Positions 1-17,171 of a stretch of DNA of 17,171 bases are shown piece after piece; positions within the stretch are counted from its first letter, which is position 1; the number at the start of each line of letters is the position of its first letter. The stretch is from positions 1 to 17,171 of the forward strand of contig MU621439.1 in NCBI GenBank assembly GCA_025399215.1, in the 5' to 3' direction. Below the pieces are notes generated by a model that was not told the origin of the DNA, ran no database searches, and saw only the letters and a list, made by a program, of their open reading frames with translations. This DNA is from Globomyces pollinis-pini (Eukaryota; Chytridiomycota; Chytridiomycetes; Rhizophydiales; Globomycetaceae). The position numbers were made by a program, and so were the translations under genes.

Positions 1-3000
1 GTTCATCAATTTCACTAATTGATTCTTCGATTTCTTCTTTAATATCTTCCTCAATCTCACTCTCTACACCAAGTTTTTGTTCTGATTCTTTCAGATCAAT
101 ATGAGATGTGACAGAAATGGTTCCAGATTTTGTGTTCTGAGTCACAGTTTTAGAATCTACGTCTACAGGAATTGACAAAGAGACACTGTTTGGTGCTACA
201 ATGACACTATCCTTCGTCTCATCAGAGATGGTCGGTTGCAGTGATACCACAGAAGAAGCCTTCGGAATGTGGGATGTAGCAATAGGCATTTCACCCTTTA
301 GTGGCTCTGTGATTTTCGCATTCTCCGAATCACCAACAATTGTAGGTTGCACTTCAACTGGAGTCTCTTTCTGAATGGATGATTCACTGATCGGTATTAC
401 AGCATCTTCATTTTTATAATTTTTAGGAACAGCGATATTTCCTGACATACCCACTGTATTTGAAAACAATCCACCTTGATCGCGCTGTGTGGATGGCTTC
501 ATATCAGGTATATTCTGAACATCTCTAGTAGATAACAGTTTAGCTGGACTGCTTTCATCAACTATTCTAGCCTGGATGAATTGGAGTTCCTGTGCTTTCA
601 TGAGTTCATAATTTTTCATCTCATTTTGGAAATCTACGATTTTTTGGTTTTCAGCTGCCAGTAATTTATCCAGCATCTAGATAATCAGTAATGTATAGTT
701 TTACCTTAGACTCTTCTAGTAAACTATCCAAGGCTGCTTTAGTCTGTTCTTTATGTATTTCACTTCTCTTTTTGATCATTTGGTCGATTTGAATTTTCTT
801 CTGCTCATTTTGTAGTTTAATTTGCGCAATTTGATTTGCAAGGGATAAGTACTCAGCTAAAACGTAAATATTCTTAATTGTTACCATCTTCTGGGATATA
901 AACGGGCAAAGACTCGACCTTGGCTGCAGATATAGATAATATACCAATGTGATTATCCGATGAAATTGGCTGTGCGACCAATAACTTTTGCGCATCAGAC
1001 TGAGACGAAAATTGAATATTTTGTAAACTTTCTACTGCTGCTACTTCGGTCAACTGCTTTTTCTCCAGTAAACTTGTTGCAGCATTTTGCTGATTTAGTT
1101 GTCTTTTTGATTGCCCCTTGTCATCCAGTATCTGGCTTTTCGTGATTTTCGTTTCATTTGTTGTAGGTTCTAATACAGCAATCTTAATTTTGCTTTCTTG
1201 ATTAATAACAGAGATGGGTACAACTGTGTTGATATTGCTCGATTGATTTGCTTTAGCGTCTGCTATTTTGGTGCTTTTAACTTCGATTTTGAGATCCGCA
1301 ATTTTGTTTTCAAGATGAGAGGATTCTTTATTTGTTTTATCTTTTGGTTTTGTCGAATTTGGTTTGGTTATGGCTTCCGATATCGAAGTTATGTTTTCGA
1401 ATGAGTCTGTATTATAGTATTCTAACTCCTCTTCAATGTCTTCTGGAAGAGTCTCAATAATTTCCTCAATCAGCTCCGGTGGTTCAAAAGCGCTGTTATC
1501 GATTGGCATTTTCGAGTCAGTGGCTGGAGATTTGTGATTTGCTGGAGCGTTAACACCGATGTTAAATCCAATGTCCGAAACTGAGTCTTCACTTTTAAAA
1601 TCTAAATCTTCCGATATAGATGCGTTCGACTGGTGGAAGGGAATGTCTTCTTCAATACTTGATATTGATTGGTTTGTTTCAAGCGATTTAAGACTTTTAA
1701 CAAATGATTCTTGTACGCTGCGAGACTTCAGATCTGTATCTTCCCGATTTGATCTTTCTGGACTGGTGTGATTTCTACCAACTCTAGCAGGTGATAGGGC
1801 CGATTTGCTATCAGTTACTTTAACTTCACTCTTTATCAAATACTGCTTCAAATTAGTATTTAAGTCTGCTAAATTTCCAGTTGATAAGTGCTCTTTTTTG
1901 TTGTCTTTGATTGATTTCTTCATGTTGAATGGTTCCAAAATAGCCTCCAGCATATTGGATATTCTTTGCTGCTCTTCATCCAACTGTTTAGCTCGACCGC
2001 TCTGTTCAATTAACGTTTCTATCAATTCTTTTCCTTGGTGTATTTTTCGCTCCTTTTGGTGGAGTACATTAATGCTCAACTTTTGCTTAGCTTTATACAA
2101 GTTATTCAATAACTCAGACAGACTGTGATTGGAGTGATCAGATTCGTCATCACAAGAATCGCTTTGATTCACGTTGTTTTCTTTCAGGTTTCTCTTTGTA
2201 GATGCCACATTCAAGTTACTTTTCACTTCCTTCAACGTAGGTTTTGAAACTGACTGTATTTCTGACATGTTAGTGTCAGAATGACTTTCGGATACTTCGC
2301 TATCTGTTAATACTATTTGCCTTTTAGCGCGTTGCGCATGACTCTCTGATATGATCCTCTCCGCCGTTTCCACTTCTTGCCAAGCATTCTTTGTATTATT
2401 TTCAGTCATTTTAAGTGTTTTAGAGACCCTTTGCTCTCTTTCCCGAAGAATTTCATTTTTCTAAAATTTATCAATTACTGCATTTACCAAGTCTTGTTTC
2501 CATTTTGGCAACTGATGAGAGATTTCTGATTGCGAATCTTCTACCAAATTTGTATCATATAACGGGAGATCTTTTTCTTGCTGTTTATAATCGACTCTGC
2601 TACCTCGGACAGAGTTTGTCTCCTTCGAATGCGAAATGATTGGATTTGATAAAGAGCTTATTGGTTTGTTCCCGATTTGCGTAGTTATTCTCGGGTTACT
2701 AAACGCTAATATGCTTGCATCGTCATCATCATATTTGCTTTGTAGTTGAATTATCGATTTAAACGTTTGGTTGTCTTTCAAGTGCTTCACTTCATCAAAT
2801 TTGGTATCGGATGAGGTTTTACCATTGTTAAATTTGGAATTCTACAGTCAAAGGAAGAAAAACATGTACCAAATAATCAATTTCTTCATAATCAGATACT
2901 TCATTAAATTCATCCCCAGAATAATTATAGTCGTCTTCATCATGAATAGAACTAATTGATTTTTTTAATTGTGATGATTTGGACGTCTTTAGCTTCGTAT

Positions 3001-6836: not shown

Positions 6837-6941
6837 CAAAGATCTTTGATGATTAAATTTATAGATAGGGACAACTTATCAAATATGATGATTTATCAAA
6901 TTCATGTGGAGACACCTCTGATGTTTATGAAAAGATCTTTG
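6837..6941. repeat. Palindromic 12-mer repeated, flanking box C- and box D-like motifs
   Basis: CAAAGATCTTTG (6837-6848) is a perfect palindrome and recurs with one change at 6930-6941, so the two copies can pair as the ends of a stem. Between them lie TTGATGA (6846-6852), ATGATGA (6885-6891) and CTGA (6918-6921), which resemble box C, box C' and box D of a C/D snoRNA. No D' box and no recognised rRNA guide is present, so this is only a weak RNA candidate. Confidence 0.25.
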
Positions 6942-12461: not shown

Positions 12462-13379
12462 TTACAATTTATTGAATGATGCAATGTCAACGGATTGAAC
12501 GTAATCTTCGAATTCCATGATTTGATCAATGAGATCGTCAGTGGAAACCTTGGAATCAACAATGACAGCAGTGATAGAGAGTTTCTTGATACCATATCCG
12601 ATTGGAACAAATTTCTTGGCACCCCAAACGAGACCGTCCATTTTGATGGCAATAACTTGCTTTTGCAAAGCTTCCATATCAGTTTCGTCATCCCAAGGCT
12701 TGACATCGAAGACAACCATGGACTTAGCATCTGGTAATGGTCCCTTAGCAGCCTTTCTAGCATTGTATTCAGCAACACGTTGAGCCTTGAGCTTTTCGTT
12801 TTCTTCATCTTCTTCTTCATCAGAACCGAATAAGTCCAAGTCTTCATCGTCTTCTTCTTCTTTGGCAGCAGGTTTGGCAGAGGCAGCAGCAGCCTTGGCA
12901 GGAGCAGCTTTAGCAGGGGCAGCAGATCCGGCTGGACCATATTCATGAGCAGCTTTCTTTACACCAATGAACCTAAGATAGGCATTAAAGACTTTTTGTA
13001 TTACTTCTTGCTTTCAGCCACGGTATAGGAAGCGATATGGTTGTACCAACGAAGGGCATTAACGTATTTAGAGGCAGGTGCTTTTTGGACAGCTTCGAAG
13101 ACAGCAACATCAGCTTGGGTAGGAACGAATCTACAAAGTCAGTAATCGGAATGAAATGAGATTAAAGATTGGTAAAAGGAACATAAAGCAATCAGAGATG
13201 CACAAGGCAAAAGGGGTTAACAGCACAGTAGGAGTGTCAAGTCCCGTCAGCAACACGGACCAATTAATCTCATCATCTTGCGAGTTTAGTTTAACTTACC
13301 CTTCGATATAGGATCGTTCAAGTAGGTAGCTATCAAGGACTTGGAGTCCAGCATCGGTATTAAGAGCAGAGAATCCCAT
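12462..13379 (-). CDS. EFB1: Translation elongation factor eEF1B alpha (EF-1 beta), nucleotide exchange factor
   Basis: Exons complement(12462..12972, 13005..13130, 13300..13379) give 238 residues. The N-terminal GST-C-like part (residues 1-70) has [18 protein letters not shown] and [12 protein letters not shown]. An Ala/Pro/Lys-rich linker follows, then the acidic [10 protein letters not shown] block (from 115), which is a CK2-type site in this family. The C-terminal exchange domain runs from about 150 to 238 ([42 protein letters not shown]), with the penultimate lysine used to eject Mg-GDP. The factor recharges eEF1A with GTP in the cytosol. The second intron is 32 nt, but the first is 169 nt and has the fuller donor GTAAGT, because it carries a snoRNA. 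AATAAA is built from the Asn-Lys codons next to the stop. Confidence 0.97.
12468..12473 (-). terminator. Candidate AATAAA inside the last codons of eEF1B alpha
   Basis: The codons for Asn-Lys, followed by Leu and the stop, spell AATAAA three bases before TAA. No better AATAAA follows within 40 bp. The coding constraint makes chance occurrence possible. Confidence 0.35.
13188..13281 (-). ncRNA. Intronic C/D-box snoRNA, snR18/U18-like, guiding 25S rRNA 2'-O-methylation
   Basis: It lies inside the 169-nt first intron of eEF1B alpha, same strand. Box C ATGATGA is at 13276-13270, D' box CTGA at 13250-13247 and D box CTGA at 13195-13192. A terminal stem pairs GCAA (13281-13278) with TTGC (13191-13188), giving a 94-nt RNA. 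The 12-nt guide TTGGTCCGTGTT (13263-13252), one base before D', is exactly complementary to AACACGGACCAA, a block I know as invariant in eukaryotic 25S/28S rRNA. The D+5 rule puts the methyl group on the A of ACA in that block (opposite 13255). From memory, this is the snR18/U18 target (yeast A649/C650), and yeast snR18 sits in the EFB1 intron. The C' box is weak and the guide upstream of D was not recognised. Confidence 0.88.
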
Positions 13380-15187: not shown

Positions 15188-16336
15188 ATGTCACAGTTAG
15201 GTTCTGATATCTTCAAAGCACTTTCTGCAAGTCTGGCTAGAACCTGGACGGAATTAAAACACGATATAAAGAATATCCCAAAGCATCCCAAATTCGCCGA
15301 TTTCAAGCATGGAGTCCATATAGCTTGGTCTGGGCTTCTAATCACTTACCATTCCAAGCAAGTATATCCTCGATTATACTCAATCACTAAATGGATATTG
15401 GTGTTGGCGCTGATAGTGTGGTTCATATCAAGAATAATCACTTCATTAGTTCATTCCATACATTTACTCTTTTCTGTCCTATTGCAAAACCGAATCTACT
15501 ACTTTGATTTTATAATTGCCAAAATTGATCAGATCGCAGCATTCACCATCTCCCTTGTTCCAAATATTTTACTCTTTGTGATTAGATACATCTACCCAAT
15601 ACCAATTGATCAACTCTTCTTTTTGTCTTTGAGTGAAAGTGGATTACGATTGCAAGATTCAATCAATACGTCGAAGGATCAACTTCAAAGCCAAGAATCG
15701 GTTGAAAACCCACGTATTAGAAGTAATTGGGCCATGGAATTCGCTAAAAAAGAGTTGAATGAACTAAGTGATCAACCAGACAAGAAACGAAAAAGAAGTT
15801 CCTGGTCGCTAATCTATGAAAATTCTAGAGGCAGTATACCGGCTAGATTATTACTTTTCTTGAAGCGACTTACAATTAAGCTGGGATTTTTCCTTTCATG
15901 TGCAATTTTATCGTGGTTACCAATCGTTGGATCTTTTGTTTGGCCACTCGTAACGTTCTACTACATTCAAAAAACGTTTGGTATGAAATATGGTGTATTC
16001 TTACTGATCTTGGGATACTGTGTTCCTTCTTTGAATAATTTACTTACCTTCAGATTTCTCAAGACTTTGGCCAAGTTAAGAGCATTCGGAAGAGAGCTAC
16101 TTGAACCTTATTTGTGTCGATCCAATATGACAAAGAAAGAGGTAAAGAAAGTACATTGATGTTTTTAGCGAAGAGCATGGTTTGATATTCATTCGGCCTA
16201 CATCTATGGTTTTACTTGCTTGCTATATCCTTTCCTATCTATCCCAATATTTGGTCCTATATTCTTTGGTGTTGCTCAAGCTGCCATTAGTGAGTTAGTG
16301 ATTGTAGTTGTGCATGATACCGATTTCAATAAGTAG
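15188..16336 (+). CDS. Fungal UsgS-like multispanning membrane protein
   Basis: Exons 15188..16141 and 16169..16336 (27-nt intron) give 373 residues. Hydrophobic segments are near residues 63-95, 105-140 and 235-285, with one more at the C-terminus. A charged, probably cytosolic, loop lies at about 160-220 (basic KKRKRSSW). The order LVPNILLFVIRYIYPIPIDQ, SWLPIVGSFVWPLVTFYYIQ, RELLEPYLCR and, after splicing, RRAWFDIHSAYIYGF...GPIFFGVAQAAISEL matches the layout I recall for proteins annotated as transmembrane protein UsgS in filamentous fungi. Biochemical function is not known to me. Splicing is supported because the C-terminal helix and GVAQA motif appear only with the intron removed. A decayed copy follows directly. 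AATAAA starts one base after the stop. Confidence 0.72.
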
Positions 16337-16669: not shown

Positions 16670-17171
16670 TAGAAACGAACCTATTGGCCATTGTCAAAAT
16701 TGATTAGATCAAGGTAGTTACAATTTCGCTTGTCCCAAATATCGTATCCTTTATCGTTAGATACATCTATCCAGTACCAATTGATCAACATTTCTTTTTG
16801 ACGTTGAAAGAAAGTGGATTAGCAGCAAGATTCAATCACTATGTCAACGGAATTTTATCGTGGTTACCAATTGTTGAATCTTTTGTTTGGCCACTTATAA
16901 CGTTCTGCTACATTCAAAAAACTTCTGGTATGAACTATATGGTATTCTTACTGGTCTTGGGATAGTGTGTTCCTCGCAAAATTTACACGTCTTGGACAAG
17001 TTGAGAGCAATCGGAAGCGAGTTACTTAAACCTTATTTGTGTCGATCTAATATGATAAGGAAAGAGGTAACGAATGTAAATTGACGTTTTAGCGAAAAGC
17101 GTGGTTTGATATTCATTTTACATCTATTGTTTTACGTGCTTGTTATATCCTTTCCTGTTTTATCTTTAGTG
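16670..17171 (+). pseudogene. Decayed tandem copy of the UsgS-like gene (runs off the window)
   Basis: From about 16670 the sequence aligns base by base with 15485 onward of the intact gene. Shared blocks include those encoding RYIYPVPIDQ, LSWLPIVESFVWPL and KPYLCRSNM. The copy carries in-frame stops at 16705-16707 and 16963-16965, small frame-shifting indels (for example around 16970-16990), and a deletion of about 225 nt that removes the charged loop and the start of a membrane helix (parent about 15678-15902). The 27-nt intron is still present (GAG then GTAACGAATG...TTTTAG, 17066-17092), so the copy arose by DNA duplication, not by reverse transcription. It cannot encode the parent protein. 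Confidence 0.85.

Follow-up and report, generated by a model that had tools for sequence, protein, structure and literature searches.

The locus examined here raises the question of why one intron of a chytrid translation gene measures 169 nt amid nearby introns of mostly about 30 bases, and whether it houses the same small nucleolar RNA (snoRNA) as the corresponding gene of budding yeast. The window, i.e., the whole stretch of 17,171 bp that was analysed, is a contig of Globomyces pollinis-pini, a chytrid (Chytridiomycota) of the order Rhizophydiales, which agrees with the supposition of the original prediction that the DNA comes from an early-diverging fungus. The gene eEF1B alpha (EF-1 beta) lies on its minus strand, and the first intron contains a 94-nt element with the layout of a box C/D RNA. 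This element is very probably a functional snoRNA orthologous to yeast snR18/U18, inherited together with its intron from an ancestor that chytrids and Dikarya share.

The host gene and its intronic RNA

The spliced product of eEF1B alpha is identical to the deposited G. pollinis-pini protein P0001 (100% identity over 238 aa) and matches the Pfam domains EF1_GNE and EF-1_beta_acid, in line with the host gene originally named. While the second intron has a size typical of the introns modelled in the window, the first one holds the RNA, leaving 18 nt on its 5' side and 57 nt on its 3' side. All positions are collected in Table 1.

The RNA combines a box C of the form RUGAUGA with a CUGA box D, and both are closed by a 4-bp GCAA/UUGC stem. 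The D' box is preceded by 12 nt (at least 10 are expected of the class) that are complementary to the large subunit (LSU) rRNA sequence ACACGGACCA. A search for properly spaced boxes C, D', and D with a stem of at least four pairs returned a single place in the whole window on both strands, namely this RNA. Among 20,000 dinucleotide shuffles of intron 1, a generic C/D layout arose in three, and a layout including the U18 guide in none. Using cmscan, the Rfam family SNORD18 (RF00093) was matched end to end on the minus strand, from 13281 to 13188 (model positions 1-71, 33.8 bits), with an E-value of 0.0049 that refers to the whole window searched against 4227 Rfam families. The RNA thus occupies exactly the coordinates originally assigned to it, with boxes C, D', and D and the 4-bp stem all present. 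In the alignment, the stretch between D' and D is longer than in the SNORD18 consensus, and four model positions are absent before the guide.

Table 1. Features of the eEF1B alpha gene, its intronic RNA and two further candidate host introns. Positions without a locus prefix refer to the window.
Feature	Position	Strand	Basis
Host gene eEF1B alpha (EF-1 beta), start to stop codon, 3 exons	12462..13379	-	Identity with P0001
Exon 1, 80 nt, ends with GG inside the Gly27 codon (SYIEG)	13300..13379	-	Gene model
Intron 1, 169 nt, GTAAGT...TTTGTAG, snoRNA host	13131..13299	-	Gene model
Intron 2, 32 nt	12973..13004	-	Gene model
Box C/D snoRNA, U18/snR18 type, 94 nt	13188..13281	-	Rfam SNORD18 match, layout, shuffles
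Terminal stem, 5' arm GCAA	13278..13281	-	Sequence; also paired in the minimum-energy fold
Box C, AUGAUGA	13270..13276	-	Sequence
Guide UUGGUCCGUGUU, pairs perfectly with LSU AACACGGACCAA over 12 bp	13252..13263	-	Pairing with the yeast 25S piece
Box D', CUGA, one unpaired base after the guide	13247..13250	-	Sequence
Box D, CUGA	13192..13195	-	Sequence
Terminal stem, 3' arm UUGC	13188..13191	-	Sequence
RPL7 intron, 133 nt, snR39/59-family C/D RNA candidate	L012:1506-1374 (G000:C247)	-	Rfam match
RPS22 intron, 218 nt, H/ACA-like RNA candidate	L029:1505-1288 (G000:C40)	-	5' pocket fits 18S U106

The predicted methylation site

The DNAzyme arms given in PMC3938493 allowed a piece of yeast 25S rRNA around A649 to be reconstructed. 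The longest duplex between the chytrid RNA and this piece comprises 12 bp and ends one base before D', so that the perfect 12-nt complementarity of the original prediction holds against the yeast sequence. Counting five bases upstream from D', as the D'+5 rule requires, leads to the base that is paired with yeast A649, which is the snR18/U18 site originally proposed. The nucleotide predicted to be methylated is therefore the A in AAC[A]CGGACCAA, the equivalent of A649.

The same host gene and the same intron site in yeast

In Saccharomyces cerevisiae, snR18 is encoded in the intron of EFB1/TEF5 (PMC2705663, PMC3938493, PMC4330371), as stated in the original prediction, and in Candida albicans it is likewise found in the EFB1 intron (PMC2926782). 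The position of the yeast intron, computed from the exon-end primers given in PMC2705663, is in KSYIEG, after the second base of the glycine codon. The chytrid intron 1 interrupts RSYIEG after the second base of its glycine codon, i.e., in the same codon and phase (GG, intron, N). The two introns consequently occupy the same site, which is a strong sign of common descent and of the orthology of the EFB1 and chytrid eEF1B alpha introns. This identity of position and phase is an addition to the original prediction. EF1B searches of the viral_contigs and genome_contigs collections returned no relative. Kappamyces is the nearest relative as judged by EF1B, and exon 1 is missing from its deposited gene model (P0002).

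Taken together, S. cerevisiae snR18 and the chytrid RNA share the C/D class, the A649 target (predicted for the chytrid RNA), the host gene, and the codon and phase of the intron. The D' guide of the yeast RNA addresses AACACGGACCA, as does that of the chytrid RNA. At 366 nt, the S. cerevisiae EFB1 intron is longer than chytrid intron 1. Outside the fungi, SNORD18 is hosted by RPL4 introns in vertebrates and is found in clusters in plants. Yeast snR18 has also been assigned C650 (PMC3938493), whereas the D'+5 rule predicts only the A649 equivalent for the chytrid RNA. The C. albicans snR18 belongs to the same RNA family and has the same host; it was detected on tiling arrays (PMC2926782), while the chytrid copy is known from its sequence. 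Neurospora crassa possesses two intronic U18 homologues, CD46A and CD46B, assigned to 26S-Am635, with a D' guide of 11-12 bp as in the chytrid RNA; their host gene is not named in the available text of PMC2780460. Animal SNORD18 and plant snoU18 are placed in the same clan, CL00047, and have the corresponding rRNA target, the yeast site being numbered Am647 there (PMC3511168). The snoRNA introns of fungal RPL7 and NOG2 (PMC8476143) follow the same principle of an orthologous intron retained for its snoRNA; in the available main text of that article, the word counts of both snR18 and EFB1 are 0.

Intron length in the window

Apart from the snoRNA host, the gene finder modelled 22 introns of 19-49 nt, located in the GUF1-like and MRI1-like genes, CCDC47, and WDR55, and including intron 2 of eEF1B alpha. 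This gene finder is home-made, crude, and unvalidated, and a few of its short calls are doubtful, e.g., an intron of 19 nt. The count excludes the 5' end of WDR55, for which either one call of 368 nt or, under other settings, calls of 19-119 nt were obtained. Other long calls were discarded: an intron of 171 nt in a REEP-like gene is an artefact inside an open frame, one of 146 nt in GUF1 turned out to be two short introns separated by an exon, and one of 203 nt in MRI1 was the product of a wrong start. The original prediction had described the eEF1B alpha intron as the only long one among 35; this is supported by the 22 modelled introns, with the WDR55 5' end and one or more large genes on the minus strand (about 0.7-6.3 kb) lying outside the check. 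The presence of the snoRNA would explain why intron 1 is long amid nearby introns of mostly about 30 bases.

Further host-snoRNA pairings in the Globomyces genome

Two other genes that host snoRNAs in yeast carry candidates in G. pollinis-pini (Table 1). The comparison made use of the exon coordinates of yeast RPL7 and RPS22 and of a list of yeast host-snoRNA pairs. The long introns of eEF1B alpha and RPL7 each contain a snoRNA match, and the coding intron of RPS22 contains an H/ACA-like RNA. In the RPL7 intron, the predicted methylation site is moved by two bases, to G805, the snR39b site of yeast, instead of A807. The 5' pocket of the RPS22 candidate, for which Rfam gives no match, fits 18S U106; this is the target of snR44, which yeast RPS22B hosts. 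N. crassa has an snR44 homologue assigned to 18S-Psi105 and an snR39b homologue, CD47, assigned to 26S-Gm785, which agrees with both of these targets (PMC2780460). It is somewhat more probable than its opposite that chytrids and yeasts share a small set of ancestral, locked pairs of host intron and snoRNA, comprising at least EFB1-U18, RPL7-snR39/59 family, and RPS22-snR44, with unchanged sites and with introns that are long for the sake of their RNA cargo while the remaining introns of the genome were reduced to a few tens of bases.

Directly before the RPS22 start codon lies a further intron-like stretch of 187 nt with a strong hairpin (L029:1827-1641, minus strand). An RNase III-related intron element is mentioned for yeast RPS22B (PMC8476143). 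In three other genes that host snoRNAs in yeast, no snoRNA match was obtained. The first intron of eEF1B gamma (L010; 131 nt, ends determined by eye) showed neither a RUGAUGA box nor an Rfam match. This intron and the 5'UTR intron of RPS22 (187 nt) are long without an identified RNA, which makes length an imperfect predictor of RNA cargo. The NOG2 and IMPDH loci, whose introns are short as judged by eye, did not match any Rfam family. For U24, whose yeast partner is the RACK1/ASC1 gene, two tandem U24-like RNAs were observed at L016:1340-1415 and 1501-1570 (plus strand, G000:C90), scoring 36.3 and 40.4 bits with a cut-off of 41. Each appears to be housed in an intron of a transcript that has no long reading frame, an arrangement that resembles a non-coding snoRNA host gene.

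Searches for other U18 copies

In the 18.5-Mb genome, the intronic RNA ranks first among 14 SNORD18 matches at E<=10, with an E-value of 0.00126 compared to 0.122 for the runner-up. Seven of the 13 lower matches, namely L003, L007, and five others, were rescanned as loci. The five others gave no match at E<=1, and L003 retained a weak U18-like match. L007 was rejected as U18, as snoU61 fits better (L007:1583-1501, minus strand, G000:C67; 33.1 bits, E 0.00051, cut-off 55), and it is probably another C/D RNA. A pattern search for the guide followed by D' gave eight matches in viral_contigs. These were dismissed as chance hits because box C is absent from the 60 bases upstream in all eight and because six of the eight are embedded in one recurring flanking sequence.

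Proposed mechanism and alternative explanations

During expression of the host gene, the eEF1B alpha pre-mRNA would be transcribed, and proteins of the 15.5K/Nop56/Nop58/fibrillarin type would bind the C/D motif of intron 1. Splicing and lariat debranching would then release the intron, and exonucleases would trim it until the protected particle of 94 nt remains. Its D' guide is predicted to pair with the LSU block AACACGGACCAA and to direct 2'-O-methylation of the A649 equivalent. The nucleotides on either side of the RNA may provide space for the splice signals and for particle assembly. In evolutionary terms, chytrids and Dikarya would have inherited the intron with its RNA from their common ancestor, and it may have stayed long because the RNA needs room. 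When Fusarium graminearum loses its debranching enzyme, intronic U18 declines and snoRNA-carrying lariats increase (PMC9606315).

Several observations weigh against this interpretation. The Rfam comparison, which had been named as a check in the original prediction, gave a match that spans the full model and is the best in the genome, and yet its score of 33.8 bits remains below the curated gathering cut-off of 41. For this reason, the RNA is not filed as a formal member of RF00093, and is described only as a C/D RNA of the U18 target class and host. At E<=10, SNORD18 matches below the cut-off also occur in 10 of the 14 control genomes, which are bacterial and archaeal, so that the genome search is not decisive by itself. 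At L003:1571-1501, on the minus strand, the genome contains a further U18-like RNA with a weaker match (25.7 bits). Between D' and D of the intronic RNA, no RUGAUGA is present and no convincing C' box was recognised by eye; the C' box is frequently degenerate in C/D RNAs. The minimum-energy fold is not better than that of shuffled sequences (z 0.35), which is usual for C/D RNAs but lends the interpretation no support. Pattern searches of the Globomyces assembly found AACACGGACCAA nowhere but in the snoRNA, and the 21-nt block was not found even when as many as three mismatches were allowed; the target sequence was therefore taken from yeast. As conserved 18S and 25S blocks likewise gave no pattern-search matches in the whole genome (G000), the rRNA genes may be absent from the assembly.

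Could the RNA be a genuine U18 that reached the EF1B intron twice, once in the line of the chytrid and once in that of yeast? Mobile snoRNAs would have favoured highly expressed translation genes as hosts; snoRNA mobility is the subject of the title of PMC3511168 and is raised in section 10 of PMC8476143, and in the Globomyces genome the snoRNA-like groups at L003 and L016 lack an evident protein host. However, the EF1B intron is the same by codon and phase in both lineages, and two more yeast host pairings have candidates in the genome. It is unlikely that repeated insertions would have hit three matching hosts independently, and we consider a separate entry improbable. Even less probable is that the EF1B copy is a relic without function, or a minor copy, with the working A649 guide encoded elsewhere, e.g., by the U18-like RNA of L003. 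That second SNORD18 match is located among other C/D-like RNAs, and the two U18 genes of N. crassa, CD46A and CD46B, provide a precedent for multiple copies (PMC2780460). Nevertheless, the pairing of the L003 copy extends over only about 10 bases of the block, and the alignment, read by eye, shows no CUGA at its D' position, while boxes C, D', and D of the EF1B copy are intact. A chance C/D-like pattern in a long intron might be suspected from the Rfam score, from the weak SNORD18 matches in the prokaryotic controls, and from the exact guide-plus-D' matches that arise elsewhere by chance, as in eight viral contigs. The missing box C upstream of all eight viral matches, the shuffle counts given above, and the location of the match in precisely that gene and that intron where yeast has its snR18 speak against this explanation to such a degree that it is hardly credible. 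An orthologous, vertically inherited U18 thus remains the favoured reading.

Other features of the window

Upstream of the GUF1-like gene, an intergenic C/D-like RNA was noticed at 6843-6925 (plus strand) with the guide UAGAUAGGGACA. Its match to snoMe28S-Cm2645 is weak (28.5 bits, E 0.032, cut-off 48), and it lacks the strict C/D layout. Under the D'+5 rule, its target would be the C guided by yeast snR64. By eye, a 10-bp inverted repeat flanks this RNA, with arms at 6837-6846 and 6932-6941. A reading frame without a Pfam match extends from 15188 to 16159 (plus strand). Farther downstream, at about 16708-17084 (plus strand), its middle and end recur as an incomplete and diverged copy.

Significance for fungal snoRNA hosts

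The RNA family, its mechanism, and the yeast pairing are already known, and the fungal snoRNA introns of RPL7 and NOG2 are known to be widely kept (PMC8476143). As the system is of a known kind, the surprise is moderate. What is new is the chytrid instance at the identical intron site, together with candidates for a second and a third pairing in the same genome. In the literature consulted, no EF1B-hosted U18 was found outside S. cerevisiae and C. albicans, although The fungal snoRNAome (Canzler et al. 2018) may list a chytrid U18. The original prediction held that the pairing had survived most of fungal evolution; the two ends now available, a chytrid and the Saccharomycotina, are consistent with such a long survival, a claim that would fail if U18 had entered the EF1B intron twice.

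The finding extends the textbook gene-in-intron arrangement of yeast to chytrids at an identical intron site, which suggests that this gene-within-gene arrangement is very old in fungi. It also makes the survival of a few introns under massive reduction testable, the prediction being that surviving long introns carry an RNA. A cheap screen follows for genomes with compact introns, in which every intron of more than about 100 nt in a translation gene is a candidate snoRNA host, and this screen could include RNAs that are missed by Rfam, such as the H/ACA candidate of RPS22. If the locked pairs are real, intron length alone could reveal non-coding RNAs.
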